DNA of 64,000 nt from Anthopleura xanthogrammica (Eukaryota; Cnidaria; Anthozoa; Actiniaria; Actiniidae), in the NCBI GenBank assembly GCA_964019055.1, contig OZ025212.1, forward strand, positions 1,316,157 to 1,380,156, in the 5' to 3' direction. Numbering within the stretch: the first letter of the stretch is position 1; every line of letters starts with the position of its first letter. The translations under genes were made by a program, and so were the position numbers. This document shows, in pieces, positions 3,160 to 57,094 of the stretch. Under the pieces are notes generated by a model that was given only the letters and a program-made list of their open reading frames with translations, was not told the origin of the DNA and ran no database searches.

Positions 3160-6100
3160 GTAACATTATAACAATTAATTAAATTAATCCTTTAAATATT
3201 ATGATTATTGATTCCTAAACTATTATAAAAAATCCTTTGGCTCATATCTGATAGTTTTAAAAGTTTTGAATTTCTAGAGGATTCGAATTTCTTTCTACTG
3301 AGTTTATTCTCTATTTTAGACACTGACTTACTCTAAGCACAGTGATATGATTTTATGAGTATAACATTTGAAATTTTCATTGATTTATCCTCTACAATAA
3401 ACTGGAATCATTTGGGTTGAAGTTATGTTTTATACCGTCGGTCTTTGCATTATTTAGCGGACTCATTTACAGTAGCTCCAAACATCGAAATACTTGCTTG
3501 AAATATTTTGTAGGTTAATTCTATTCACCTGTTTGACCACCTACCAAGTTAACACGAATATTTACATCATTCGTAGCTCTAAGTTTTTAAAAATTAAGAC
3601 TTCCTGGGTGGTGGCGGCTTGCAGTGAAGTATGCACTTTAGTCAAAGATTTTAAATGTCATGTTTTTCTGAAATATTGCCCCTGTTTAATGGCTAAGCCC
3701 AAACGCCTAATAATTATCTAATTTATATTTAATAACTCGTATAGTATATTTTTGGCCTTTTTTAAAAACACATTCAACAAACACATTCCACAAACAAAGA
3801 ACAAGCAGCTTGATGACAAACAAATGTTTACATCTCTAAGTAAAACACAAAAACAACATAATATTTAAACGAATAAGTTGTTTACTGCCGGAAAAAGGTT
3901 GAAACTGAAAGTGGTGGAATCGTCCATAAACGTCCATATTTTATTTCACACGAAATACGAGCGCAGCATTTTTGTACACATCTTCAGTTTGTATTTCACT
4001 TTTAAAGTACTTAAAGTTTTAAAAAGTTTTTTTCGAATAATATCTCAATATTCATGAAGAAAATAGGTAAAACAACCAATTCTAAACTAAAATGACGACA
4101 ATAATGTCCCATTTATAAACGTTTTGCTCCATGGAACTCGAATAAATCAAAAAAATTATTACACAACAGTGTATATTGCGGACCCGACTTGATGTCTCGC
4201 CAGTAGTATAGAAGTAGCGGTTCTAAGCCACTTGTGCTTCTTGAGCAGGCCGGAGCAGGCCGGAGCAGGCCGGTGCTCTCCCCGTGGTTAGCGTTAGAGT
4301 CATATCTATTTTTAGATTCGAAGATTGCACCAAACAATGCAATGAAGGCTGACGTTTTTATTCATTGTAAATTATTTAATATTTTTCAAAAATATAAACT
4401 CCTTGACGGGGAATCGAACCCCGGTCACTTGCTCGACAGGCAAGTATACTAACCACTATACTACCAAGGATTTTGATGTTAGTTCTTCATCATGAAATAT
4501 ATTTGTCTCACGAGTCGGGATCGAACCAACGACCAACAGATGGCTGTTTTTTACACTACAGTCTGTCGCTCTACCAACTGAGCTATCATGAGATGTATAC
4601 TTTTACTCTTCATTAAAACCCTATATTAGAGGTTATCCAAATAATATAGACTGATTGATTATACATCATGAGTAAGGATGCTGTTTTGTTTCATCTTTCT
4701 TTATCTTGTTGGATTAGCCTTGGATTCATACCCCTACTCATTCCCTAGAATAAGCTAAAGCTACCTTTTTAATAAAATATGATGACCTTAATGGGATTCG
4801 AATCCATAACTTCTGATCTGGAGTCAGAGATGCTAACCATTACACCATAAGGTCCTTTTTGGTTCCAAACAGCTAAAATTCATAATTATGTTACTAGCCT
4901 GGATGGGAAGAGACTTTTCTGCAGGTGGTATTTCTAATTTGATTGTACACATTAATCTTCGAGATACTGATTTATTGTTCATTATGTACAAATAAATATC
5001 ACAGTGTACTTTACTTTGTTTAAGCAAACAAAAGCTATTGTTTCCATCAACACATGATGTTTATCTTGGATTTGTCAGAATCAATTTTGAATAAATTTGT
5101 TTTCGGAGGTTGTGTTTTGAGTGTCACTGGAAATATTTCTCTATGTTTCAGAGAAAAAATATGATCTTAATGGGAATCGAACCTATATAATCTTCTGATC
5201 TAGAGTCAGACGTGATAACCATTACACTATAATTGTCCTCGTAATAGACAATAACTACGCGATTTATTGTATGATTATATTTCTCGTTCAGTGGCAAAGC
5301 TTTTGTCAAGGTTCTTATTAATTTTGATCTCAATATTACAACTTAGAATTTTTCCCACTTGGGCAATGACTTGACCATGGCTTTCAGTCTTTGTGAACGA
5401 CGTGGAGGCTCTAAGACTACATCTTTGTATTTATGGGCGTCCTGATAACTAATCCACTTGATGGGTTTTTCTTTACTTGATGGGGGAGTGGGTGGAAAAT
5501 TAAGTGGGGTTGGAAGAGATCGTGTTTTAGGGGTGCTGGAAGAAGAGGGTTGATCAAAACCCGTCGTGGTTTTTAAGGGAGTAGAAGGAACCTCGGCTAT
5601 ACTGGGTTCAAAAGAAGGGGTTCTAATTTTAGAGGTTAGTCGCTCTAGGAGGGAAGGGGTCTTGTGTTTAGGCGTTACATGGCTATAGCCACTGTCACTG
5701 GTGAGACTTATTGAGGGAACGTTTTCTGGAGTTGTTGCATTAGTGGGAAGCCTAGGACCAGCTGATGGTGGTGTCTGTAATGTTTGCACCATTTCCAACC
5801 TTGATTTGTGTGGCAAACTACTTCGTTGAAGCTGCTGTTCTAGAACGAGGTATCGATTGTAGAGTTGCGTATACTCTTTGAATTTTAGCTCCGCAGGGAC
5901 ATTGGGTTCCTTTAGAATACTAGCCATATGCTCCTCTAAATTCTGCAGTATTTTGAGTATGGGTGACTGTAAATAGCTCTGACGTTCGAAATAGTTGGCA
6001 ATAGATTGCATGACTTCTGATTGTCCACCATGCTGTGATGTTGTCGTATGGTTCGACTGTAAAACAACATGATCACTAGGGAGAACATTGGTTCGAAGTC

Positions 6101-9100
6101 TGCACTCCTCTTGAGTATTGGGTTTGAGATCCACAAACAGATATCCGTAAGGTCGTTGGACAGCGGCCTCGTACTTTTGAATAAACTGTTCTATTTTTCC
6201 CGGGTACATCTGTTTCCCCAAAGTCATCATTTGTAGCTTGTCTCTTGGGTTTTTAAATAGAACAAGGTACGCAGCGTTCAGACTCAAAGTTCGCATGATT
6301 TTTCCTTGGAAATAAAGGTTTTGTAGGAGGAAGATGACAGTGAGGTTGCGATGGTGAGATCCTTTGGTGAATAAATTCATGATTGTTTTGTCGTTGGACG
6401 TTTCGGTCATTTGGTCATCAATCACGATCACATTATTAATTTGAGGGTCAAAATAACTATCTTCATCTAAGTCGTACGGTATGCCTTTAACAAACTCTAT
6501 GCCTGGCACTGTCTGTAACATGTCTTCATAAGCAGGTTGCCATTGGGAATAACTCCAAACGATTCGTTGTGGTGGGGTGTTATTACTTTTCTCGCACGTT
6601 CGAGCAGATTCTGTACCCAAATTGTTTTACCTGATCCAGTCATTCCTGCCACTATGGCCGTAAAGGGGTGTAGCAATTGAAACCTGTCGCATTCTATGTC
6701 TTCAACATTTCGAGTCTGAGGGTAGGGACTAAACCGCTGACCAATTGTTTGCATGTGTTTTCCTTGAAGTAAGAGTGCTCGCTCTGGACCACTGATCTTG
6801 TGGACACGAATTAAATGAGACCATACATGTTGCACGGACTTGCCACAAATAGGACACAACCGCCCCATCTCGTGTCTTTGAAGAATGAGACTAATTCTTG
6901 AAGGAGACGCTATTTTATGATAGACCTTGCTCGGCTCTTAGGCTCGGAGCCTAAGGGCTCAGCTCGATCGTAGGCTCGGCTCGGCTCGTATAGGCTCGGA
7001 GCCTAAGGGCTCAGCTCGATCGTAGGCTCGGCTCAGCTCGTATAGGCTCGGAGCCTAAGGGCTTGGCTCGTAGCTCGGCTCGGCTCGTATAGGCTCGGAG
7101 CCAAAGGGCTTGGCTTGTAGGCTCGGCTCGACTAGGCTAGGCTAGGTTAGGTTGAGATGTATGCCATTCTGCGAACCCAATTTTGTTTCAAAGGGTAAAT
7201 CATGAATACACTCTCTTTCGTGACGTGCAAGATTAGGTTGGTACAATATAGGTTGGTATAATATAGGTTGGTATAATAAACTAGAATAAATAGTAGATGC
7301 ATCTCAGATAATTTACTATTTCAACACGTCTTTCGAGGAGAGAACATGAGTCGACTACTTGTTGATAATTTTGGTTATTTGCATTTTTTAGTTCGTTGTC
7401 CTGAACCTCAGAGAAACGTCTTGCTCGCTACTGCCACTCCTGAACAAGTTCATGTAGTGTGCGAGGTCTGTCATAATCTATTGAAAGGAGTTATTCCACT
7501 TACTTACTCTCAAAAAGAAACATTGAGATCTCATGCTAATGACATCAGAACGCTAGCAGACTCATCAGTGCCTTTCAAAACAAAGAAAATAATTTTGGCC
7601 CAAAAGGGCGGCAGATTTGTAAAAGATATTGCATCACCTTTGGCTGGGGATGTATTCTTGCTATAAATAGTCCTTCGTAATCCCTCGATATTCATTTGGA
7701 TCTTGTTAAGACATTAGTGATCATCATGAAGCGAAGATATTCTGAAAATTCCAAGGAAGACGTATCAGACTCCGAGGCCTCTAGTGAGGAGGAGCCTTTG
7801 GACAATGAAATTGATCAGATGGTACAGGAGCTTTCCAAAAGCATACCCAGGGAGAAGGTACTAAATGTACTCCACAGTATGGCCGCTTCTAAGGACATTT
7901 TGTATTGGAATTCGCATGGAAAAATGACTTATCATCAACGACGAATCCCAGTCACAAGCATGAAGGAATTAGTTGAATATGCTTTATTACCTTACAACCC
8001 AGATGTTAGACCACCCAGAGGTTTAAAAACGTTTACTAATGGATTGGTAGAACTGGGCATTAACAAACATCTAATTGGCAATCAGAATTTGTTGGTAGAT
8101 CTTGTTGCTACGCAACCGGAAGATGAAGACACAGATGAGAGTGAGACTGAAAGTCAGTCAACTGATGATCAATCCCATAATCATGAACCGCATGATGAAG
8201 AAGAGGAAGAACAAAGTAGTGATGATGAAGAGGGGGAACAAGAGGAAGAACAAAGCATGGACGAGGAATCGAATTCTGATGAAGAAGAACAAAGACAGTG
8301 TCACGTTTGTCAAGAACCCCGACAGTTTCTCAAGATATCTGTAGTGCGGTGCCCAACTTGCCATTGGCATGAAGGTCACTCTGGTCATCTAAACGATGTA
8401 GTTCACTGTGACATTTGTTCAACCGTTTTCCCAGCTAATCTACAGAACACAAAGAAAACATTTTACTGCTGTAATGACTGCGATTCTATTCACCAGATGT
8501 CGTTAAAGTCAAACAGATTGAAACTCATTGTACCAAAACATGAAGACGAACAAATGGAAGAAGAGGGAAACCACGGAACGGATCTCGAATACTTTCCTTC
8601 ATTACCCAAGTGGGAAAAATTCTAAGTTGTAATATTGAGATCAAAATTAATAAAGAACCTTGATAAAAGCTTTGCCACTGAACGAGAAATATAATCATAC
8701 AATAAATCGCGTAGTTATTGTCTATTACGAGGACAATTATAGTGTAATGGTTATCACGTCTGACTCTAGATCAGAAGATTATAGGTTCGATTCCCATTAA
8801 GATCATATTTTTTCTCTGAAACATAGAGAAATATTTCCAGTGACACTCAAAACACAACCTCCGAAAACAAATTTATTCAAAATTGATTCTGACAAATCCA
8901 AGATAAACATCATGTGTTGATGGAAACAATAGCTTTTGTTTGCTTAAACAAAGTAAAGTACACTGTGATATTTATTTGTACATAATGAACAATAAATCAG
9001 TATCTCGAAGATTAATGTGTACAATCAAATTAGAAATACCACCTGCAGAAAAGTCTCTTCCCATCCAGGCTAGTAACATAATTATGAATTTTAGCTGTTT

Positions 9101-12100
9101 GGAACCAAAAAGGACCTTATGGTGTAATGGTTAGCATCTCTGACTCCAGATCAGAAGTTATGGGTTCGAATCCCATTAAGGTCATCATATTTTATTAAAA
9201 AGGTAGCTTTAGCTTATTCTAGGGAATGAGTAGGGGTATGAATCCAAGGCTAATCCAACAAGATAAAGAAAGATGAAACAAAACAGCATCCTTACTCATG
9301 ATGTATAATCAATCAGTCTATATTATTTGGATAACCTCTAATATAGAGTTTTAATGAAGAGTAAAAGTATACATCTCATGATAGCTCAGTTGGTAGAGCG
9401 ACAGACTGTAGTGTAAAAAACAGCCATCTGTTGGTCGTTGGTTCGATCCCGACTCGTGAGACAAATATATTTCATGATGAAGAACTAACATCAAAATCCT
9501 TGGTAGTATAGTGGTTAGTATACTTGCCTGTCGAGCAAGTGACCGGGGTTCGATTCCCCGTCAAGGAGTTTATATTTTTGAAAAATATTAAATAATTTAC
9601 AATGAATAAAAACGTCAGCCTTCATTGCATTGTGTGGTGCAATCCTCGAATCTAAAAATAGATATGACTCTAACGCTAACCACCCCCTCCCCCTACGGGC
9701 CGGGAGAGGGGCCCGGGGAGAGCACCGACCTGCTCCGGCCTGCTCCGGCCTGCTCCGGAGCACAAGTGGCTTAGAACCGCTACTTCTATACTACTCTCGC
9801 CGCGCCTCGGTTGACTAGATGAAATCATTGCATTTCTCAGAAAAGATTCAGAAACTACTCAGCCGAAGCGCGGCGAGACATCAAAACTGATATAAAAAGT
9901 ATTTTTACAGCAACTTCTGTCACCAATGTCACAACCACAGTCCAGCTACCCACAACCAGTGGGGCAACCACGCAGCCACCTACCACTAGTGGGGTAACCA
10001 CGCAGCCACCTACCACCAGTGGGGCAACCACACTGCCACCTATCACTAGTTGGGTAACCACGCAGCCACCTACCACCAGTGGGGCAACCACACTGCCACC
10101 TATCACTAGTTGGGCAACCACGCAGCCACCTACCACCAGTGGGGCAACCAAGCAGCCACCTACAACTACTACGACCATGGTGCAACCCACAATCATTCCC
10201 AGTAAGTTTGGTATTGCTAATTTATATATGAAATAGTGCGAGTGCGAATATAAAGTTGCATAGTACCTGACAGCATGACTTGAGTCATTGAAAGTTTATG
10301 ACCTTTATGTTTTAATAGCACCACCAGTTGATCCAGTCATGTATCCCTATGGTCTACAAGCATTCGATACAAAGTATAACAGGAACGAATGGTACTGGTG
10401 GACCTGCCCACGAGTTGACCTTGATTTTCGTGGAGTTCCTTTTTTTGGAAGAAAACATTATCATATTCACGTAAGTGTAAAAAAAAAAATACGCTGTATC
10501 AGTGCCTCATTTAAAGTGCGTACTCTTCTATTTTCTGCTATTATATTCCTTTTACGGTAATAAAAAAATAAAAACCCACCAAATTGAATCAAACCCTGAA
10601 AAGAAAAACCCTGGGATGATCTAATAAGAAAGGGCACGGCTAATTCACAGACAGAATTGTAATTTAGCTTAAAGTGGGAAGACGATGAAAATTGAACCTT
10701 TTCCTAAAGAGATTATTTCGATGATAATTTATAAAATCATAGCTAAAATTCTGAGTTGAATTGTCTAAGAATATCGTCCGCCATTAATCCATCTGGTTCC
10801 TACCCGTGACGTCAGTCACTCAACGCTTTGCTTTTAGTGTCCAAGTTTAGGACTTATTGCTACATCGTTGCTCCAAATAGCGTCTTCCTGAAATTATTTT
10901 CAACAAAGAAACCTCAACTACAGAATATTCATATATGACAACAAGCCATGAGGGTTATCAATGTTGAGTAACTAACGTCACAAAGGGACACGTTTGAATA
11001 ATGGCGAGAAAAGAAATCCAAGAAATAGAACTTGTTTTGAGGACGTTCCCTTTATCGTACCACAAAATAGCTTTAGAATATTAGTGTGAATGATATTAGT
11101 ATGTCAAAAATGCAAAAACATTAACTACGTTCATTTCGTTATCATATTCGTATCATATTCGTTCCACTTTAATTGAAAACCCAATTTAATGAAGAAAACC
11201 CCCCAATCAATGGAGAGACCTAACAAACTCTACCACATGTGATACGAAGTCGATTCAAGAATCGAAACCCAGAGGTTAGATCGAGGCAAGTGCACTACTG
11301 CTAAACAAACACTGATTCGGTTCTCAGTTTAATATGTTTTCTTTCTCGATATCAGGTCTGCCCAAATGGTTTAATGTCTTTCGATTCGTCCTGGTTCCGA
11401 CGGTGGCCGTACAATTTTGGTCAATACTACTGGTTCGATAGATACGCTATGCTTGCACCTTACTGGTCTTTAGTTGATGTTTATGACTCCTTTGCTAACG
11501 ACATATCTCAGATGTACTACCATGCATACCGAGAATACGATGGAAATCCTGCAACAGAAAGAATACTGCAAAGGGCTACAAACGATGTGAACAGGCACAC
11601 CAGGAACAATCCGCTGCCAACCGAATTTACTAAAGCCACATATGTGTTGGTGGTGACGTGGGTTAGGTTACGTCACTGGTATTCAAGGTGGAGGACGGTT
11701 ATGCGAGACAAGGTGAGACTTAAAGAAATAGAAGGAAAAGAATGGGTGGGTGGGTGGGTGGATGGATGGATGGATGGCTCTATAGATGGACGAGTGAGCG
11801 AGCTAACGAGGAAGGGAGAGAAAGAGCGAGGGAGAGAAGGAGCGAGGTGTAGCAGTGTTGTCATACAACCGCTAAGGCAAAAATCGCAATTCAGAAAGCA
11901 CAAAGATCTTTGATGGAATTAGAGCAGACTTGCTAGAGATAGAAAAATTAGGCAGGGCAATGATTCTTCTTCACTTCCAAGCAGCCAATATAAAATCACC
12001 GAACGTGTTGCATAAATATTATGATGCTGGGTATTAGATATAGCATAGCACAATGCTCTTATAATTTGCATGTGATCTGAGACATTCATTTCACGTTAAT

Positions 12101-31807: not shown

Positions 31808-34800
31808 GTAACATTATAACAATTAATTAAATTAATCCTTTAAATATTATGATTATTGATTCCTAAACTATTATAAAAAATCCTTTGGCTCATAAAAGTT
31901 TTGAATTTCTAGAGGATTCGAATTTCTTTCTACTGAGTTTATTCTCTATTTTAGACACTGACTTACTCTAAGCACAGTGATATGATTTTATGAGTATAAC
32001 ATTTGAAATTTTCATTGATTTATCCTCTACAATAAACTGGAATCATTTGGGTTGAAGTTATGTTTTATACCGTCGGTCTTTGCATTATTTAGACTTATTT
32101 ACAGTAGCTTCAAACATCGAAATACTTTTAAATCAATTAATTATTGGTTGCAAATTCAACATTTTTACTATCGAAATACTTGCTTGAAATATTTTGTAGG
32201 TTAATTCTATTCACCTGCTTGACCACCTACCAAGTTAACACGAATATTTACATCATTCGTAGCTCTAAGTTTTTAAAAATTAAGACTTCCTGGGTGGTGG
32301 CGGCTTGCAGTGAAGTATGCACTTTAGTCAAAGATTTTAAATGTCATGTTTTTCTGAAATATTGCCCCTGTTTAATGGCTAAGCCCAAACGCCTAATAAT
32401 TATCTAATTTATATTTATTAACTCGTATAGTATATTTTTGGCCTTTTTTAAAAACACATTCAACAAACACATTCCACAAACAAAGAACAAGCAGCTTGAT
32501 GACAAACAAATGTTTACATCCCTAAGTAAAACACAAAAACAACATAATATTTAAACGAATAAGTTGTTTACTGCCGGAAAAAGGTTGAAACTGAAACGGC
32601 TAAGTGGTGGAATCGTCCATAAACGTCCATATTTTATTTCACACGAAATACGAGCGCAGCATTTTTGTACACATCTTCAGTTTGTATTTCACTTTTAAAG
32701 TACTTAAAGTTTTAAAAAGTTTTTTTCGAATAATATCTCAATATTCATGAAGAAAATAGGTAAAACAACCAATTCTAAACTAAAATGACGACAAGAATGT
32801 CCCATTTATAAACGTTTTGCTCCATGGAACTCGAATAAATCAAAAAAATTATTACACAACAGTGTATATTGCGGACCCGACTTGATGTCTCGCCAGTAGT
32901 ATAGAAGTAGCGGTTCTAAGCCACTTGTGCTTCTTGAGCAGGCCGGAGCAGGCCGGAGCAGGCCGGAGCAGGTCGGTGCTCTCCCCGTGGTTAGCGTTAG
33001 AGTCATATCTATTTTTAGATTCGAGGATTGCACCAAACAATGCAATGAAGGCTGACGTTTTTATTCATTGTAAATTATTTAATATTTTTCAAAAATATAA
33101 ACTCCTTTACGGGGAATCGAACCCCGGTCACTTGCTCGACAGGCAAGTATACTAACCACTATACTACCAAGGATTTTGATGTTAGTTCTTCATCATGAAA
33201 TATATTTGTCTCACGAGTCGGGATCGAACCAACGACCAACAGATGGCTGTTTTTTACACTACAGTCTGTCGCTCTACCAACTGAGCTATCATGAGATGTA
33301 TACTTTTACTCTTCATTAAAACCCTATATTAGAGGTTATCCAAATAATATAGACTGATTGATTATACATCATGAGAAAGGATGCTGTTTTGTTTCATCTT
33401 TCTTTATCTTGTTGGATTAGCCTTGGATTCATACCCCTACTCATTCCCCAGAATAAGCTAAAGCTACCTTTTTAATAAAATATGATGACCTTAATGGGAT
33501 TCGAATCCATAACTTCTGATCTGGAGTCAGAGATGCTAACCATTACACCATAAGGTCCTTTTTGGTTCCAAACAGCTAAAATTCATAATTATGTTACTAG
33601 CCTGGATGGGAAGAGACTTTTCTGCAGGTGGTATTTCTAATTTGATTGTACACATTAATCTTCGAGATACTGATTTATTGTTCATTATGTACAAATAAAT
33701 ATCACAGTGTACTTTACTTTGTTTAAGCAAACAAAAGCTATTGTTTCCATCAACACATGATGTTTATCTTGGATTTGTCAAAATCAATTTTGAATAAATT
33801 TGTTTTCGGAGGTTGTGTTTTGAGTGTCACTGGAAATATTTCTCTATGTTTCAGAGAAAAAATATGATCTTAATGGGAATCGAACCTATAATCTTCTGAT
33901 CTAGAGTCAGACGTGATAACCATTACACTATAATTGTCCTCGTAATAGACAATAACTACGCGATTTATTGTATGATTATATTTCTCGTTCAGTGGCAAAG
34001 CTTTTGTCAAGGTTCTTATTAATTTTGATCTCAATATTACAACTTAGAATTTTTCCCACTTGGGCAATGACTTGACCATGGCTTTCAGTCTTTGTGAACG
34101 ACGTGGAGGCTCTAAGACTACATCTTTGTATTTATGGGCGTCCTGATAACTAATCCACTTGATGGGTTTTTCTTTACTTGATGGGGGAGTGGGTGGAAAA
34201 TTAAGTGGGGTTGGAAGAGATCGTGTTTTAGGGGTGCTGGAAGAAGAGGGTTGATCAAAACCCGTCGTGGTTTTTAAGGGAGTAGAAGGAACCTCGGCTA
34301 TACTGGGTTCAAAAGAAGGGGTTCTAATTTTAGAGGTTAGTCGCTCTAGGAGGGAAGGGGTCTTGTGTTTAGGCGTTACATAGCCACTGTCACTGGTGAG
34401 ACTTATTGAGGGAACGTTTTCTGGAGTTGTTGCATTAGTGGGAAGCCTAGGACCAGCTGATGGTGGTGTCTGTAATGTTTGCACCATTTCCAACCTTGAT
34501 TTGTGTGGCAAACTACTTCGTTGAAGCTGCTGTTCTAGATCGAGGTATCGATTGTAGAGTTGCGTATATTCTTTGAATTTTAGCTCCGCAGGGACATTGG
34601 GTTCCTTTAGAATACTAGCCATCTGCTCCTCTAAATTCTGCAGTATTTTGAGTATGGGTGACTGTAAATAGCTCTGACGTTCGAAATAGTTGGCAATAGA
34701 TTGCATGACTTCTGATTGTCCACCATGCTGTGATGTTGTCGTATGGTTCGACTGTAAAACAACATGATCACTAGGGAGAACATTGGTTCGAAGTCTGCAC

Positions 34801-37800
34801 TCCTCTTGAGTATTGGGTTTGAGATCCACAAACAGATATCCGTAAGGTCGTTGGACAGCGGCCTCGTACTTTTGAATAAACTGTTCTGTTTTTCCCGGGT
34901 ACATCTGTTTCCCCAAAGTCATCATTTGTAGCTTGTCTCTTGGGTTTTTAAATAGAACAAGGTACGCAGCGTTCAGACTCAAAGTTCGCATGATTTTTCC
35001 TTGGAAATAAAGGTTTTGTAGGAGGAAGATGACACTGAGGTTGCGATGGTGAGATCCTTTGGTGAATAAATTCATGGTTCTTTTGTCGTTGGACGTTTCG
35101 GTCATTTGGTCATCAATCACGATCACATTATTAATTTGAGGGTCAAAATTACTATCTTCATCTAAGTCGTACGGTATGCCTTTAACAAACTCTATGCCTG
35201 GCACTGTCTGTAACATGTCTTCATAAGCAGGTTGCCATTGGGAATAACTCCAAACGATTCGTTGTGGTGGGGGTGTTATTACTTTTCTCGCACGTTCGAG
35301 CAGATTCTGTACCCAAACTGTTTTAGCTGATCCAGGCATTCCTGCCACTATGGCCGTAAAGGGGTGTAGCAATTGAAACCTGTCGCATTCTATGTCTTCA
35401 ACATTTTGAGTCTGAGGGTAGGGACTAAACCGCTGACCAATTGTTTGCATATGTTTTCCTTGAAGTAAGAGTGCTCGCTCTGGACCACTGATCTTGTGGA
35501 CACGAGTTAAATGAGACCATACATGTTGCACGGACTTGCCACAAATAGGACACAACCGCCCCATCTCGTGTCTTTGAAGAATGAGACTAATTCTTGAAGG
35601 AGACGCTATTTTATGATAGACCTTGCTCGGCTCTTAGGCTCGGAGCTTTAAGGCTCGGCTCTTAGGCTCGGAGCTTTAAGGCTCGGCTCTTAGGCTCGGA
35701 GCTTTAAGGCTCGGCTCTTAGGCTCGGAGCTTTAAGGCTCGGCTGGGCTCGTATTGGCTCGGCTCGGCTCATATAGGCTCGGAGCCTAAGGGCTCAGCTC
35801 GATCGTAGGCTCGGCTCGGCTCGTATAGGCTCGGAGCCTAAGGGCTCAGCTCGATCGTAGGCTCGGCTCGGCTCGTATAGGCTCGGAGCCTAAGGGATTG
35901 GCTCGTAGCTCGGCTCGGCTCGTATAGGCTCGGAGCCAAAGGGCTTGGCTTGTAGGCTCGGCTCGACTAGGCTAGGCTAGGTTAGGTTGAGATGTATGCC
36001 ATTCTGCGAACCCAATTTTGTTTCAAAGGGTAAATCATGAATACACTCTCTTTCGTGACGTGCAAGATTAGGTTGGTACAATATAGGTTGGTATAATAAA
36101 CTAGAATAAATAGTAGATGCATCTCAGATAATTTACTATTTCAACACGTCTTTCGAGGAGAGAACATGAGTCGACTACTTGCTGATAATTTTGGCTATTT
36201 GCATTTTTTAGTTCGTTGTCCTGAACCTCAGAGAAAAGTCTTGCTCGCTACTGCCACTCCTGAACAAGTTCATGTAGTGTGCGAGGTCTGTCATAATCTA
36301 TTGAAAGGAGTTATTCCACTTACTTACTCTCAAAAAGAAACATTGAGATCTCATGCTAATGACATCAGAACGCTAGCAGACTCATCAGTGCCTTTCAAAA
36401 CAAAGAAAATAATTTTGGCCCAAAAGGGCGGCAGATTTGTAAAAGATATTGCATCACCTTTGGCTGGGGATGTATTCTTGCTATAAATAGTCCTTCGTAA
36501 TCCCTCGATATTCATTTGGATCTTGTTAAGACATTAGTGATCATCATGAAGCGAAGATATTCTGAAAATTCCGAGGAAGACGTATCAGACTCCGAGGCCT
36601 CTAGTGAGGAGGAGCCTTTGGACAATGAAATTGATCAGATGGTACAGGAGCTTTCCAAAAGCATACCCAGGGAGAAGGTACTAAATGTACTCCACAGTAT
36701 GGCCGCTTCTAAGGACATTTTGTATTGGAATTCGCATGGAGAAATGACTTATCATCAACGACGAATCCCAGTCACAAGCATGAAGGAATTAGTTGAATAT
36801 GCTTTATTACCTTACAACCCAGATGTTAGACCACCCAGAGGTTTAAAAACGTTTACTAATGGATTGGTAGAACTAGGCATTAACAAACATCTAATTGGCA
36901 ATCAGAATTTGTTGGTAGATCTTGTTGCTACGCAACCGGAAGATGAAGACAGGGATGAGAGTGAGACTGAAAGTCAGTCAACTGATGATCAATCCCATAA
37001 TCATGAACCGGATGATGAAGAAGAGGAAGAACAAAGTAGTGATGATGAAGAGGGGGAACAAGAGGAAGAACAAAGCATGGACGAGGAATCGAATTCTGAT
37101 GAAGAAGAACAAAGACAGTGTCACGTTTGTCAAGAACCCCGACAGTTTCTCAAGATATCTGTAGTGCGGTGCCCAACTTGCCATTGGCATGAAGGTCACT
37201 CTGGTCATCTAAACGATGTAGTTCACTATGACATTTGTACAACCGTTTTCCCAGCTAATCTACAGAACACAAAGAAAACATTTTACTGCTGTAATGACTG
37301 CGATTCTATTCACCAGATGTCGTTAAAGTCAAACAGATTGAAACTCATTGTACCAAAACATGAAGACGAACAAATGGAAGAAGAGGGAAACCACGGAACG
37401 GATCTCGAATACTTTCCTTCATTACCCAAGTGGGAAAAATTCTAAGTTGTAATATTGAGATCAAAATTAATAAAGAACCTTGACAAAAGCTTTGCCACTG
37501 AACGAGAAATATAATCATACAATAAATCGCGTAGTTATTGTCTATTACGAGGACAATTATAGTGTAATGGTTATCACGTCTGACTCTAGATCAGAAGATT
37601 ATAGGTTCGATTCCCATTAAGATCATATTTTTTCTCTGAAACATAGAGAAATGTTTCCAGTGACACTCAAAACACAACCTCCGAAAACAAATTTATTCAA
37701 AATTGATTTTGACAAATCCAAGATAAACATCATGTGTTGATGGAAACAATAGCTTTTGTTTGCTTAAACAAAGTAAAGTACACTGTGATATTTATGTGTA

Positions 37801-40800
37801 CATAATGAACAATAAATCAGTATCTCGAAGATTAATGTGTACAATCAAATTAGAAATACCACCTGCAGAAAAGTCTCTTCCCATCCAGGCTAGTAACATA
37901 ATTATGAATTTTAGCTGTTTGGAACCAAAAAGGACCTTATGGTGTAATGGTTAGCATCTCTGACTCCAGATCAGAAGTTATGGGTTCGAATCCCATTATC
38001 ATATTTTATTAAAAAGGTAGCTTTAGCTTATTCTGGGGAATGAGTAGGGGTATGAATCCAAGGCTAATCCAACAAGATAAAGAAAGATGAAACAAAACAG
38101 CATCCTTTCTCATGATGTATAATCAATCAGTCTATATTATTTGGATAACCTCTAATATAGGGTTTTAATGAAGAGTAAAAGTATACATCTCATGATAGCT
38201 CAGTTGGTAGAGCGACAGACTGTAGTGTAAAAAACAGCCATCTGTTGGTCGTTGGTTCGATCCCGACTCGTGAGACAAACATATTTTATGATGAAGAACT
38301 AACATCAAAATCCTTGGTAGTATAGTGGTTAGTATACTTGTCTGTCGAGCAAGTGACCGGGGTTCGATTCCCCGTAAAGGAGTTTATATTTTTGAAAAAT
38401 ATTAAATAATTTACAATGAATAAAAACGTCAGCCTTCATTGCATTGTTTGGTGCAATCCTCGAATCTAAAAATAGATATGACTCTAACGCTAACCACCCC
38501 CTCCCCCTACGGGCCGGGAGAGGGGCCCGGGGAGAGCACCGACCTGCTCCGGCCTGCTCCGGCCTGCTCCGGAGCACAAGTGGCTTAGAACCGCTACTCT
38601 CGCCGCGCCTCGGTTGACTAGATGACATCATTGCATTTCTCAGAAAAGATTCAGAAAAGATTCAGAAACTATTCAGCCGAAGCGCGGCCAGACATCAAAA
38701 CTGATATAAAAAGTATTTCTACAGCAACTTCTGTCACCAATGTCACAACCACAGTCCAGCCACCCACAACCAGCGGGGCAACCACGCAGCCACCTACCAC
38801 TAGTGGGGTAACCACGCAGCCACCTACCACCAGTGGGGCAACCACGCAGCCACCTACTACCAGTGGGGCAACCACGCAGCCACCTACCACCAGTGGGGCA
38901 ACCACGCAACGACCCACAACTACTACGACCACGGTGCAACCCACAATCATTCCCAGTAAGTTTGGTATTGCTAATTTATATATGAAATAGTGCGAGTGCG
39001 AATATAAAGTTGCATAGTACCTGACAGCATGACTTGAGTCATTGAAAGTTTATGACCTTTATATTTTAATAGCACCACCAGTGGATCGAGTCATGTATCC
39101 CTATGGTCTACAAGCATTTGATACAAAGTATAACTGGAACCGATGGTACTGGTGGACCTGCCCACGAGTTGACCTTGATTTTCGTGGAGTTCCTTTTTTT
39201 GGAAGAAAACATTATCATATTCACGTAAGTGTAAAAAAAAAATACGCTGTATCAGTGCCTCATTTAAAGTGCGTACTCTTCTATTTTCTGCTATTATATT
39301 CCTTTTACGGTAATAAAAAAATAAAAACCCACCAAATTGAATCAAATCCTGAAAAAAAAAAAAAAAAGGGATGATCTAATAAGAAAGGGCACGGCTAATT
39401 CACAGACAGAATTGTAATTTAGCTTAAAGTGGGAAGACGATGAAAATTGAACCTTTTCCTAAAGAGATTATTTCGATGATAATTTATAAAATCATAGCTA
39501 AAATTCTGAGTTGAATTGTCTAAGAATATCGTCCGTCATTAATCCATCTGGTTCCTATCCGTGACGTCAGTCACTCAACGCTTTGCTTTTAGTGTCCAAG
39601 TTTAGGACTTATTGCTACATCGTTGCTCCAAATAGCGTCTTCCTGAAATTATTTTCAACAAAGAAACCTCAACTACAGAATATTCATATATGACAACAAG
39701 CCATGAGGGTTATCAATGTTGAGTAACTAACGTCACAAAGGGACACGTTTGAATAATGGCGAGAAAAGAAATCCAAGAAATAGAACTTGTTTTGAGGACG
39801 TTCCCTTTATCGTACCACAAAATAGCTTTAGAATATTAGTGTGAATGATATTAGTATGTCAAAAATGCAAAAACATTAACTACGTTCATTTCGTTATCAT
39901 ATTCGTATCATATTCGTTCCACTTTAATTGAAAACCCAATTTAATGAAGAAAACCCCCCAATCAATGGAGAGACCTAACAAACTCTACCACATGTGATAC
40001 GAAGTCGATTCAAGAATCGAAACCCAGAGGTTAGATCGAGGCAAGTGCACTACTGCTAAACAAACACTGATTCGGTTCTCAGTTTAATATGTTTTCTTTC
40101 TCGATATCAGGTCTGCCCAAATGGTTTAATGTCTTTCGATTCGTCCTGGTTCCGACGGTGGCCGTACAATTTTGGTCAATACTACTGGTTCGATAGATAC
40201 GCTATGCTTGCACCTTACTGGTCTTTAGTTGATGTTTATGACTCCTTTGCTAACGACATATCTCAGATGTACTACCATGCATACCGAGAATACGATGGAA
40301 ATCCTGCAACAGAAAGAATACTGCAAAGGGCTACAAACGATGTGAACAGGCACACCAGGAACAATCCGCTGCCAACCGAATTTACTAAAGCCACATATGT
40401 GTTGGTGGTGACGTGGGTTAGGTTACGTCACTGGTATTCAAGGTGGAGGACGGTTATGCGAGACAAGGTGAGACTTAAAGAAATAGAAGGAAAAGAATGG
40501 GTGGGTGGGTGGGTGGATGGATGGATGGATGGCTCTATAGATGGACGAGTGAGCGAGCTAACGAGGGAGGGAGAGAAAGAGCGAGGGAGAGAAGGAGCGA
40601 GGTGTAGCAGTGTTGTCATCCAAGCGATAGCAATTGCAAAATGTCCATTTCCCAATAATGACAACCGCTAAGGTAAAAATCGCAATTCAGAAAGCACAAA
40701 GATCTTTGATGGAATTAGAGCAGACTTGCTAGAGATAGAAAAATTAGGCAGGGCAATGATTCTTCTTCACTTCCAAGCAGCCAATATAAAATCACCGAAC

Positions 40801-54754: not shown

Positions 54755-55186
54755 CGATATGTTTAAAAAATAACTCGTACCTTAATAAATCTTTGGCGGA
54801 TTGGAGTTGAAAGTCAATTGCGGTAAAAAAAAAATTCAGAAATTTATGCACTTTGTAGATATCGATCTTAGATGGAAGTTTGTTTTGCGGCATTCAGACC
54901 TCTTTTCATTCCTTTTTCTTTGTTTCATTTGCATTCAAACAAAGAAATGATACTCAAGGGAATGACACGTGGTATGAAATGGGCAAAACATTGTGCCCAA
55001 GGTAAAGATGTCTATTCAAGAAAAGATTTTCCGTATGTTTTATATCAAGCAACATGACTTCCTGTTCTTTCGTTATTTCCTCCTACAAACCACCCATGCC
55101 ATAATAGACAAGCTTTATACTTAGTAGTCTAGTATCTCTGGGATCATCTCGATCAGTTTTATCCATGATCAAAATATGCCCTTGGC

Positions 55187-55816: not shown

Positions 55817-57094
55817 TTCGTTCGTTCGTTCGTTCGTTCGTTCGTTCGTTCGTTCGTTCGTTCGTTCGTTCGTTCGTTCGTTCGTTCGTTCGTTCGTTCG
55901 TTCGTTCGTTCGTTCGTTCGTTCGTTCGTTCGTTCGTTCGTTCGTTCGTTCGTTCGTTCGTTCGTTCGTTCGTTCGTTCGTTCGTTCGTTCGTTCGTTCG
56001 TTCGTTCGTTCGTTCGTTCGTTCGTTCGTTCGTTCGTTCGTTCGTTCGTTCGTTCGTTCGTTCGTTCGTTCGTTCGTTCGTTCGTTCGTTCGTTCGTTCG
56101 TTCGTTCGTTCGTTCGTTCGTTCGTTCGTTCGTTCGTTCGTTCGTTCGTTCGTTCGTTCGTTCGTTCGTTCGTTCGTTCGTTCGTTCGTTCGTTCGTTCG
56201 TTCGTTCGTTCGTTCGTTCGTTCGTTCGTTCGTTCGTTCGTTCGTTCGTTCGTTCGTTCGTTCGTTCGTTCGTTCGTTCGTTCGTTCGTTCGTTCGTTCG
56301 TTCGTTCGTTCGTTCGTTCGTTCGTTCGTTCGTTCGTTCGTTCGTTCGTTCGTTCGTTCGTTCGTTCGTTCGTTCGTTCGTTCGTTCGTTCGTTCGTTCG
56401 TTCGTTCGTTCGTTCGTTCGTTCGTTCGTTCGTTCGTTCGTTCGTTCGTTCGTTCGTTCGTTCGTTCGTTCGTTCGTTCGTTCGTTCGTTCGTTCGTTCG
56501 TTCGTTCGTTCGTTCGTTCGTTCGTTCGTTCGTTCGTTCGTTCGTTCGTTCGTTCGTTCGTTCGTTCGTTCGTTCGTTCGTTCGTTCGTTCGTTCGTTCG
56601 TTCGTTCGTTCGTTCGTTCGTTCGTTCGTTCGTTCGTTCGTTCGTTCGTTCGTTCGTTCGTTCGTTCGTTCGTTCGTTCGTTCGTTCGTTCGTTCGTTCG
56701 TTCGTTCGTTCGTTCGTTCGTTCGTTCGTTCGTTCGTTCGTTCGTTCGTTCGTTCGTTCGTTCGTTCGTTCGTTCGTTCGTTCGTTCGTTCGTTCGTTCG
56801 TTCGTTCGTTCGTTCGTTCGTTCGTTCGTTCGTTCGTTCGTTCGTTCGTTCGTTCGTTCGTTCGTTCGTTCGTTCGTTCGTTCGTTCGTTCGTTCGTTCG
56901 TTCGTTCGTTCGTTCGTTCGTTCGTTCGTTCGTTCGTTCGTTCGTTCGTTCGTTCGTTCGTTCGTTCGTTCGTTCGTTCGTTCGTTCGTTCGTTCGTTCG
57001 TTCGTTCGTTCGTTCGTTCGTTCGTTCGTTCGTTCGTTCGTTCGTTCGTTCGTTCGTTCGTTCGTTCGTTCGTTCGTTCGTTCGTTCGTTCGTT
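55817..57094. repeat. expanded TTCG tetranucleotide array, about 1.28 kb (unit 2)
   Basis: About 320 uninterrupted TTCG units. Because the unit is four bases long, two minus-strand frames stay open through it and give a meaningless Asn-Glu-Arg-Thr polymer. The matching array in unit 1 is only about 145 bp and impure. Confidence 0.97.

Follow-up and report, generated by a model that had tools for sequence, protein, structure and literature searches.

Animal Polinton/Maverick elements have long terminal inverted repeats with (AGT)2//(ACT)2 ends and lie between 6-bp duplications (PMC8097293). The main text of that report, which gives this end motif and duplication length for vertebrate Mavericks, does not contain the word tRNA (transfer RNA). 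Here we describe a 64,000-nucleotide stretch of the genome of the sea anemone Anthopleura xanthogrammica (assembly GCA_964019055.1, contig OZ025212.1; C7:1316157-1380156 in the genome coordinates used below), referred to as the window. In it, a Polinton-type element with the same ends and duplication length carries a set of tRNA genes in each of its terminal inverted repeats, or arms.

tRNA genes have been reported in protist Polinton-like viruses (PLVs) and virophages (PMC12220804, PMC10741620), and a collection of PLV and virophage genomes gives 558 Rfam tRNA matches (PMC12220804). Unlike the anemone genes, these are not described, in the accessible parts of the two reports, as lying in terminal repeats, as forming a fixed Tyr-Asp-Trp set, or as occurring in animals. 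Murine gammaherpesvirus 68 has eight tRNA-microRNA (miRNA) genes, which are transcribed by host RNA polymerase III (Pol III), and the anemone elements are like it in having several viral tRNA genes. According to the accessible part of the report (PMC12239594), the herpesvirus tRNAs are joined to pre-miRNA hairpins, whereas the anemone genes meet a run of T at once in 25 of 29 contexts. No kinship between the two is claimed. Adenoviruses, which are distantly related to Polintons, make virus-associated (VA) RNAs, i.e., Pol III transcripts with tRNA-like promoter boxes; unlike the element tRNAs, these have no tRNA cloverleaf and are located outside the inverted repeats. In listings of papers that join Polintons, adintoviruses or Mavericks with tRNA or Pol III, from a library with few subscription papers and no separate bioRxiv preprints, no tRNA set in animal Polinton arms was found. 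As far as these searches show, there is no earlier report of animal Polintons that carry a tRNA set of their own, present twice through the terminal repeats.

The segment 4202–9795 of the window is a real, mobile Polinton-type element with tRNA-bearing arms, here called copy A. The element is about 5.6 kb long and its arms about 1.2 kb; the arms align at 96% overall and share a gap-free core in which all 904 bases are identical. Kinship with Polintons/Mavericks, as proposed in the initial annotation, is borne out by the (AGT)2//(ACT)2 ends, the 6-bp duplication and an A32-like ATPase, all of which are present. The borders, arms and tRNA loci are as follows.

4196 to 4201, no strand, left target-site duplication, CTCGCC
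4202 to 9795, no strand, element copy A, 5,594 bp, ends AGTAGT / ACTACT
4202 to 5369, plus strand, left terminal inverted repeat
4399 to 4470, minus strand, tRNA-Asp(GTC), left arm, Rfam 62.6 bits, followed by a run of five T
4505 to 4592, minus strand, tRNA-Tyr(GTA) with a 14-base intron, left arm, Rfam 55.5 bits, no run of four T within 60 bases in copy A
4783 to 4854, minus strand, tRNA-Trp(CCA), left arm, Rfam 61.5 bits, followed by a run of four T
5162 to 5234, minus strand, CTA locus, decayed Trp copy, left arm, Rfam 42.7 bits, acceptor ends unmatched
8599 to 9795, minus strand, right terminal inverted repeat
8735 to 8805, plus strand, CTA locus, decayed Trp copy, right arm, Rfam 49.3 bits
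9113 to 9184, plus strand, tRNA-Trp(CCA), right arm, Rfam 67.5 bits
9375 to 9462, plus strand, tRNA-Tyr(GTA) with intron, right arm, Rfam 55.5 bits, also found by ARAGORN
9497 to 9568, plus strand, tRNA-Asp(GTC), right arm, Rfam 62.6 bits
9796 to 9801, no strand, right target-site duplication, CTCGCC

All arm tRNAs are transcribed outward, toward the nearer element end. Rfam finds 16 tRNA matches above its gathering score in the window, all 16 of them inside the arms of copy A and of a second copy, B; their scores are 42.7–67.5 bits, with a cut-off of 29 bits. ARAGORN predicts 15 tRNA genes in the window and, in each arm of copy A, names Asp(GTC), Trp(CCA) and the CTA locus and leaves one gene unnamed; once introns are allowed, the unnamed locus of the left arm is Tyr(GTA) with its 14-base intron. 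In copy A, the Asp, Tyr and Trp tRNAs have a full cloverleaf, a complete acceptor stem and the right anticodon, and the Tyr intron sits at the canonical place. Chance cloverleaves are ruled out by the confinement of all 16 Rfam matches to the arms, and insertions of tRNA-derived short interspersed nuclear elements by the complete acceptor stems and the correctly placed intron.

The CTA locus differs from the other three. It is identical to the intact Trp tRNA of related elements at 63 of 73 bases, and four of its seven acceptor pairs and one T-stem pair are broken, with the D, anticodon and most T-stem pairs still formed. The locus is a pseudogene, i.e., a degraded Trp tRNA copy. Of the four loci per arm in the initial annotation, then, Asp GTC, Tyr GTA with its intron and Trp CCA stand as tRNA genes, and the number of intact genes in each arm falls from four to three. 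The locus derives from a dispersed Trp type with a shared flank of about 170–181 bases. Seven copies of this type were seen, not as inverted pairs (best 40 of 93 candidates scored), at C12:10231400, C6:15864891, C3:14133116, C1:24919358, C21:4955898, C10:5229331 and C21:5983992. An amber-suppressor role for the CTA locus was also considered and rejected, as the acceptor and T stems are broken and a TAG stop ends just one of 12 element open reading frames (ORFs) examined.

The same tRNA arms are found on elements of two size classes, ~5.6 kb and ~11.3 kb, and comparison of the arm types suggests that selection preserved these genes as tRNAs during the mobile life of the elements. Between the left arm of copy A and an arm of the 11.3-kb type, 5 of 230 tRNA sites differ, as against 44 of 463 spacer sites (p 2e-4), i.e., a divergence of about 2% in the tRNAs and about 10% in the spacers. 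For six further arms, which belong to the 11.3-kb type or share its outer portion, comparison with the window arm yields p values from 5e-5 to 3e-3, although the arms in this test are related to each other and largely represent one contrast. Among more distant copies, the tRNA/spacer odds ratio is below 1 in all 11 local alignments, with p < 0.05 in six; nine of the 20 rows of this set, each shorter than ~85 bases and several of them Trp/CTA cross-matches, were dropped, and some copies are near-identical. Between the window element and the C21 family, 72 of 166 fourfold sites in the ATPase differ, and 2 of 72 sites in the Asp tRNA.

The stems give a second line of evidence. Canonical animal tRNAs served as references; the best host genes match them at 96% for Asp and, over bases 6–72, at 97% for Trp. 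Against these references, the element Asp has five changed stem pairs, four of them changed on both sides; the window-type Trp has eight, five on both sides; and a second element-type Trp has seven, four on both sides. None of the changed pairs in the three tRNAs is unpaired. Pairing between the Tyr anticodon loop and the intron is kept in all six sequences, with the intron varying in length. Downstream, 25 of 29 distinct contexts have a run of at least four T starting 0–7 bases past the tRNA (identical contexts merged, and a tRNA-Ser prediction at window position 55177, outside the elements, excluded). By tRNA, the run is found for Asp in 9 of 11 contexts (one miss being cut by the locus end), for Tyr in 4 of 5 (the miss being the copy A type), for Trp in 10 of 11 and for CTA in 2 of 2.

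Element Asp tRNAs are 81–84% identical to canonical Asp, and the host copies reach 96% at best (40 of 68 candidates scored). Canonical Trp has 29 matches in the genome, all 29 candidates having been scored; the window-type Trp is absent from them, and the other element-type Trp matches canonical Trp at 84–88% across 47–55 bases only. The description of the element tRNAs as diverged from the usual animal sequences is thus upheld: they differ clearly from host Asp and Trp genes, and recent capture from the host is rejected on the same grounds for Asp and Trp, the two tRNAs compared. The ordinary host genes lie partly in large tandem arrays, one of tRNA-Asp at C1:22551889-22568689 with a period of ~161 bp and one of tRNA-Trp at C13:8948271-8951482 with a period of ~285 bp. 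A peculiarity of the element Asp tRNA (window 4399–4470 and relatives) lies in its anticodon loop, where positions 37–38 are GA in 11 of 12 aligned sequences and AC in canonical animal Asp. In other animals, C38 of tRNA-Asp is the Dnmt2 methylation site.

The family was followed through 290 Mb of genome, and element stretches were read at 20 places outside the window. Arm matches number at least 64 (best 40 of 117 candidates scored). Exact 6-bp target duplications flank 13 of the 16 copies with printed ends, in 13 different sequences; as for the other three, copy B repeats the duplication of copy A, the two flanks of C79 agree in 5 of 6 bases, and C2s gave no clear end. The start is AGTAGT in 12 of the 16 printed copies and at the left end of copy B; C12b and C79 start with AGTAGA, and C2s again gave no clear reading. 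The tRNAs lie within the borders of many independent insertions.

Tests of whether the tRNAs keep to the elements rest on genome searches in which all 34 Tyr candidates were scored; those for Asp (best 40 of 76) and Trp (best 40 of 67) give lower bounds, and Rfam was applied to 16 of the 25 read element loci (L009–L033). Of the 34 Tyr matches, 27 are in read arms or the window, two have an element terminus within 0.3 kb on the outside (C3:5934403, C13:3915895), three are within ~3 kb of an ATPase match, and the last two (C7:6905551, C2:11268656) were not placed in an element. Free-standing tRNAs beyond the element borders, the finding named in the initial annotation as fatal to its claim, were therefore not seen for Tyr, with those last two as possible exceptions. 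In families at 77%, outward Asp genes flank the ATPase at C21:9553059/9557152 and C1:19777963/19782948. Two side observations concern single copies. 5S ribosomal RNA genes lie ~0.2 kb beyond the end of one tRNA-armed copy (L027:263-381 and 1-68, C2:6460000 region), and the C12 copy holds an unrelated integrase-type ORF (L016:41-1321), apparently from a retroelement.

The short class encodes an ATPase of 506 amino acids (aa) and proteins of 106 and 309 aa. The ATPase frame of copy A is split into two ORFs, as follows.

5343 to 6620, minus strand, C-terminal piece of the A32-like ATPase, broken frame
6497 to 6868, minus strand, N-terminal piece of the A32-like ATPase, same broken frame
7346 to 7666, plus strand, 106-aa ORF, homologue of the 112-aa ORF of the 11.3-kb elements
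7696 to 8625, plus strand, 309-aa ORF (299 aa counted from ATG), acidic, with a Cys-rich end

The packaging ATPase is A32/FtsK-like: its Pox_A32 match (E 0.0039) falls under the curated cut-off, and PF04665 is annotated on many of its full-length database relatives, the best named of which come from the sea anemone Actinostola. No rve integrase is found among the ORFs of either copy in the window, and neither an adenovirus-type cysteine protease nor a double-jelly-roll major capsid protein in the window element.

The long class comprises three copies of ~11.26–11.30 kb, at C100, C9 and C5, with arms of 2.1 kb. The copies differ from each other by only ~0.1%, and it follows that the lineage moved recently. 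Their ORFs encode proteins of 187 aa, 358 aa (integrase-chromodomain), 250 aa, 134 aa, the capsid protein (428 aa read, the start being cut off by the locus edge), 151 aa (putative protease), 281 aa (ATPase), 112 aa and 261 aa. The integrase is recognized by its rve domain (E 9.8e-15) and chromodomain (E 5.9e-10), and also in structure matches. The putative adenovirus-type protease has a Peptidase_C5 match (E 5.3e-4) that scores 20.2 bits, below the cut-off of 21.3, and the ATPase a domain match just under the curated cut-off. No Pfam family matches the capsid protein itself. Its AlphaFold model (predicted local distance difference test score 81.5) matches double-jelly-roll capsids, best the Sputnik capsid (E 1.2e-16), and the protein is accordingly predicted by structure to be a double-jelly-roll major capsid protein. 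Among its 1493 database relatives are anemone proteins 71–85% identical; the best named ones, from Actinostola and Exaiptasia, together with those of the ATPase, point toward a host of the sea-anemone kind. The 250-aa ORF, with no significant protein-family match, is presumably a minor capsid (penton) candidate, to judge by its position. Searches of PHROGs and NCBIfam with the element proteins gave nothing useful beyond transposase-type integrase matches, and a search of viral contigs with three proteins and two tRNA patterns found no relatives. The 11.3-kb elements also have, just inside one arm, a 135-base copy of the outer terminus at 87–89% (L020:3667-3801, with equivalents in L022 and L025), which resembles a fossil older end.

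The two classes are connected by more than their arms. The 106-aa protein (copy B ORF as query) is 36% identical to the 112-aa protein of the long class (E 6e-17); similarity between the 309-aa and 261-aa ORFs is weak (E 0.029). In the 5.6-kb copy C5a, compared with the 11.3-kb arm, the outer arm, Asp, Tyr and the spacer after each are 100% identical and Trp 99%, after which identity drops to 92% with gaps; its inner arm and ATPase are 99% and 97% identical to the window type. By these matches, C5a is the product of an exchange of ends between the short and long classes. As the long relatives with the same arms encode integrase and capsid protein, the window element derives from a lineage of Polintons that encode a capsid, and the short form is satellite-like. 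The absence of integrase, capsid and polymerase genes noted in the initial annotation holds for the window element, but the element does not stand alone, since its 11.3-kb relatives have integrase and capsid; polymerase B was not found in them. The 11.3-kb relatives are like Polintons/Mavericks in having an rve integrase, a putative protease, an ATPase and a double-jelly-roll capsid protein. The anemone elements are unlike them in being shorter, in having tRNA genes in the arms and in that no polymerase B was found, and the window form further in being without integrase, protease and capsid protein.

No polymerase B ORF is present in the 5.6-kb or 11.3-kb elements, and none of the 21 genome matches of PF03175 (91 of 92 candidates scored) lies inside them. 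At C9:7.47 Mb, a polymerase, an integrase, an ATPase and a 31% identical capsid match are close together, so the genome does contain a complete Polinton. By list comparison, it is the sole capsid match of 36 within 20 kb of a PF03175 match, and the terminus search (26 of 26 candidates scored) found no termini of the tRNA elements at it. At C7:11221032 there is one polymerase fragment, beside a 93% terminus and with a 94% identical integrase fragment 2.4 kb away. Several further capsid lineages (42–88% identical), many with integrase at the same places, have no PF03175 nearby; the genome may hold many capsid elements that lack a polymerase.

The anatomy and mobility of the elements, and the conservation and compensatory change of their tRNAs, can be read from the sequences. 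As to function, we hold with moderate confidence that the arm cassette consists of Pol III-type tRNA genes kept by selection, most likely for translation in the virus-like phase of a Polinton satellite system. The short form, which keeps the ATPase and two small proteins, would receive integrase and capsid proteins from the 11.3-kb form by trans-mobilization, and polymerase for both forms would come from elsewhere. The element tRNAs would be transcribed, processed (with Tyr spliced) and charged by host enzymes, and would support translation during the virus-like phase, the two arms giving a double dose. Copies without a cassette could use tRNAs from other copies. We also put forward, as a proposal that is tentative at best, a multi-part system of an 11.3-kb capsid/integrase unit and a 5.6-kb ATPase unit, with shared tRNA ends and no polymerase of their own, which the host or some other Polinton would have to lend, both units depending on the charged terminal tRNAs in replication.

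Several observations weigh against a selected, translational cassette. When arms of one and the same type are compared, in seven pairs that include copies diverged only after insertion, tRNAs and spacers do not differ significantly: the left and right arms of copy A differ at 1 of 231 tRNA sites and 3 of 500 spacer sites, and the other pairs give p values of 0.20 or more. Covariation within each tRNA alignment is weak, too weak alone to decide. Asp, Tyr and Trp are not clearly over-used when the element proteins alone are counted (5.2, 3.9 and 1.1% of residues in the 11.3-kb class; 5.2, 3.0 and 1.0% in copy B). Tyr is gutted in the C21, C1 and C19 families, with its middle gone in C21 and only its 3′ end aligning in the right arms of C1 and C19, and C5c has lost Asp and Tyr and kept Trp alone. 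Four short elements (C9:11.06, C15:5.17, C10:6.84 and C2:15.26 Mb) have no intact Asp, Tyr or Trp, and their arms are nevertheless 99.8–100% identical, with clean duplications in three of the four. Eight elements have a capsid protein of 87% identity or more, and the arms of only three of them were read; none of the other five (87–88%) turned up when all Tyr candidates were scored, so perhaps not every branch of the lineage has the cassette. Finally, arms recombine, which can spread the cassette and inflate similarity. Since mobile copies exist without intact tRNAs, an element can move without a cassette of its own. A trans-acting product would allow such copies, a cis function hardly, and among the uses proposed that of the mature tRNA seems to fit best.

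The alternative that survives best, although we consider it unlikely, is that the tRNA genes take no part in decoding and instead provide Pol III promoters or small RNAs, either uncharged tRNAs or tRNA fragments. The decayed CTA copy retains its D, anticodon and most T-stem pairs despite a broken acceptor. The outward terminal position in both arms and the T-runs downstream are also as expected for this alternative. In murine gammaherpesvirus 68, its model, the tRNAs tested were not detectably charged, as stated in the accessible part of the report (PMC12239594). The Pol III promoter boxes of tRNA genes, however, lie in the D and T arms, and in the anemone elements the stems of acceptor and anticodon are kept as well, as is the intron pairing, with compensatory changes, and in the 25 contexts with a T-run 0–7 bases past the tRNA there is no space for a downstream hairpin.

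Less probable again is a functionless passenger, captured once and spread with the arms through homogenization of the terminal repeats. Loss of the cassette in several lineages, decay of the CTA copy and recombination of the arms would all suit a passenger. The smaller divergence of the tRNAs than of the adjacent spacers between arm types (p 2e-4), repeated in further alignments, argues otherwise, and compensatory stem changes relative to animal tRNAs are not expected of it. Least probable is that the tRNA genes act in cis as DNA, as chromatin boundaries, open-chromatin ends or structures at replication ends: their outward position in both terminal repeats is in its favor, but complete tRNA folds would be unnecessary, and the four cassette-less elements with near-identical arms speak against it, as they do against the replication or priming role suggested in the initial annotation.

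The second copy in the window, copy B, is a segmental duplicate of copy A. Window 223–24519 and 26552–55965 form a tandem segmental duplication, 92–99% identical and offset by ~28.7 kb at the element, and the target sequence CTCGCC is common to both copies; the window therefore represents a single insertion event. The count of sixteen tRNA loci in the initial annotation agrees with the 16 Rfam matches, which reflect one insertion doubled by the duplication. The features of copy B are the following; "both programs" stands for ARAGORN and Rfam.

32895 to 38598, no strand, element copy B, target sequence identical to that of copy A
33102 to 33173, minus strand, tRNA-Asp, left arm, both programs
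33208 to 33295, minus strand, tRNA-Tyr, left arm, both programs
33486 to 33557, minus strand, tRNA-Trp, left arm, both programs
33865 to 33935, minus strand, CTA locus, left arm, both programs
34044 to 35564, minus strand, A32-like ATPase, 506 aa, frame open
36166 to 36486, plus strand, 106-aa ORF
36516 to 37445, plus strand, 309-aa ORF
37555 to 37625, plus strand, CTA locus, right arm, both programs
37933 to 38001, plus strand, tRNA-Trp, right arm, truncated, six bases lost near the 3′ end
38189 to 38276, plus strand, tRNA-Tyr, right arm, both programs
38311 to 38382, plus strand, tRNA-Asp, right arm, both programs

Two repeats in the window may be added. The insertion target site of copy A lies in a hairpin-like inverted repeat, TTGATGTCTCGCC ... 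GGCGAGACATCAA, beside a 30-bp minisatellite (4183–4201 and 9796–9886), and a satellite with an 8-bp period occupies 55817–57094.

Taken together, these elements seem to be a virus-like lineage of animals that has retained tRNAs of its own. Compensatory changes have moved the cassette away from the tRNAs of animals, and part of it is kept across families that are far apart at silent sites. The paired large and small forms resemble a virus with satellites inside one animal genome, and they offer a testable case that small integrated animal viruses may profit from tRNAs of their own.

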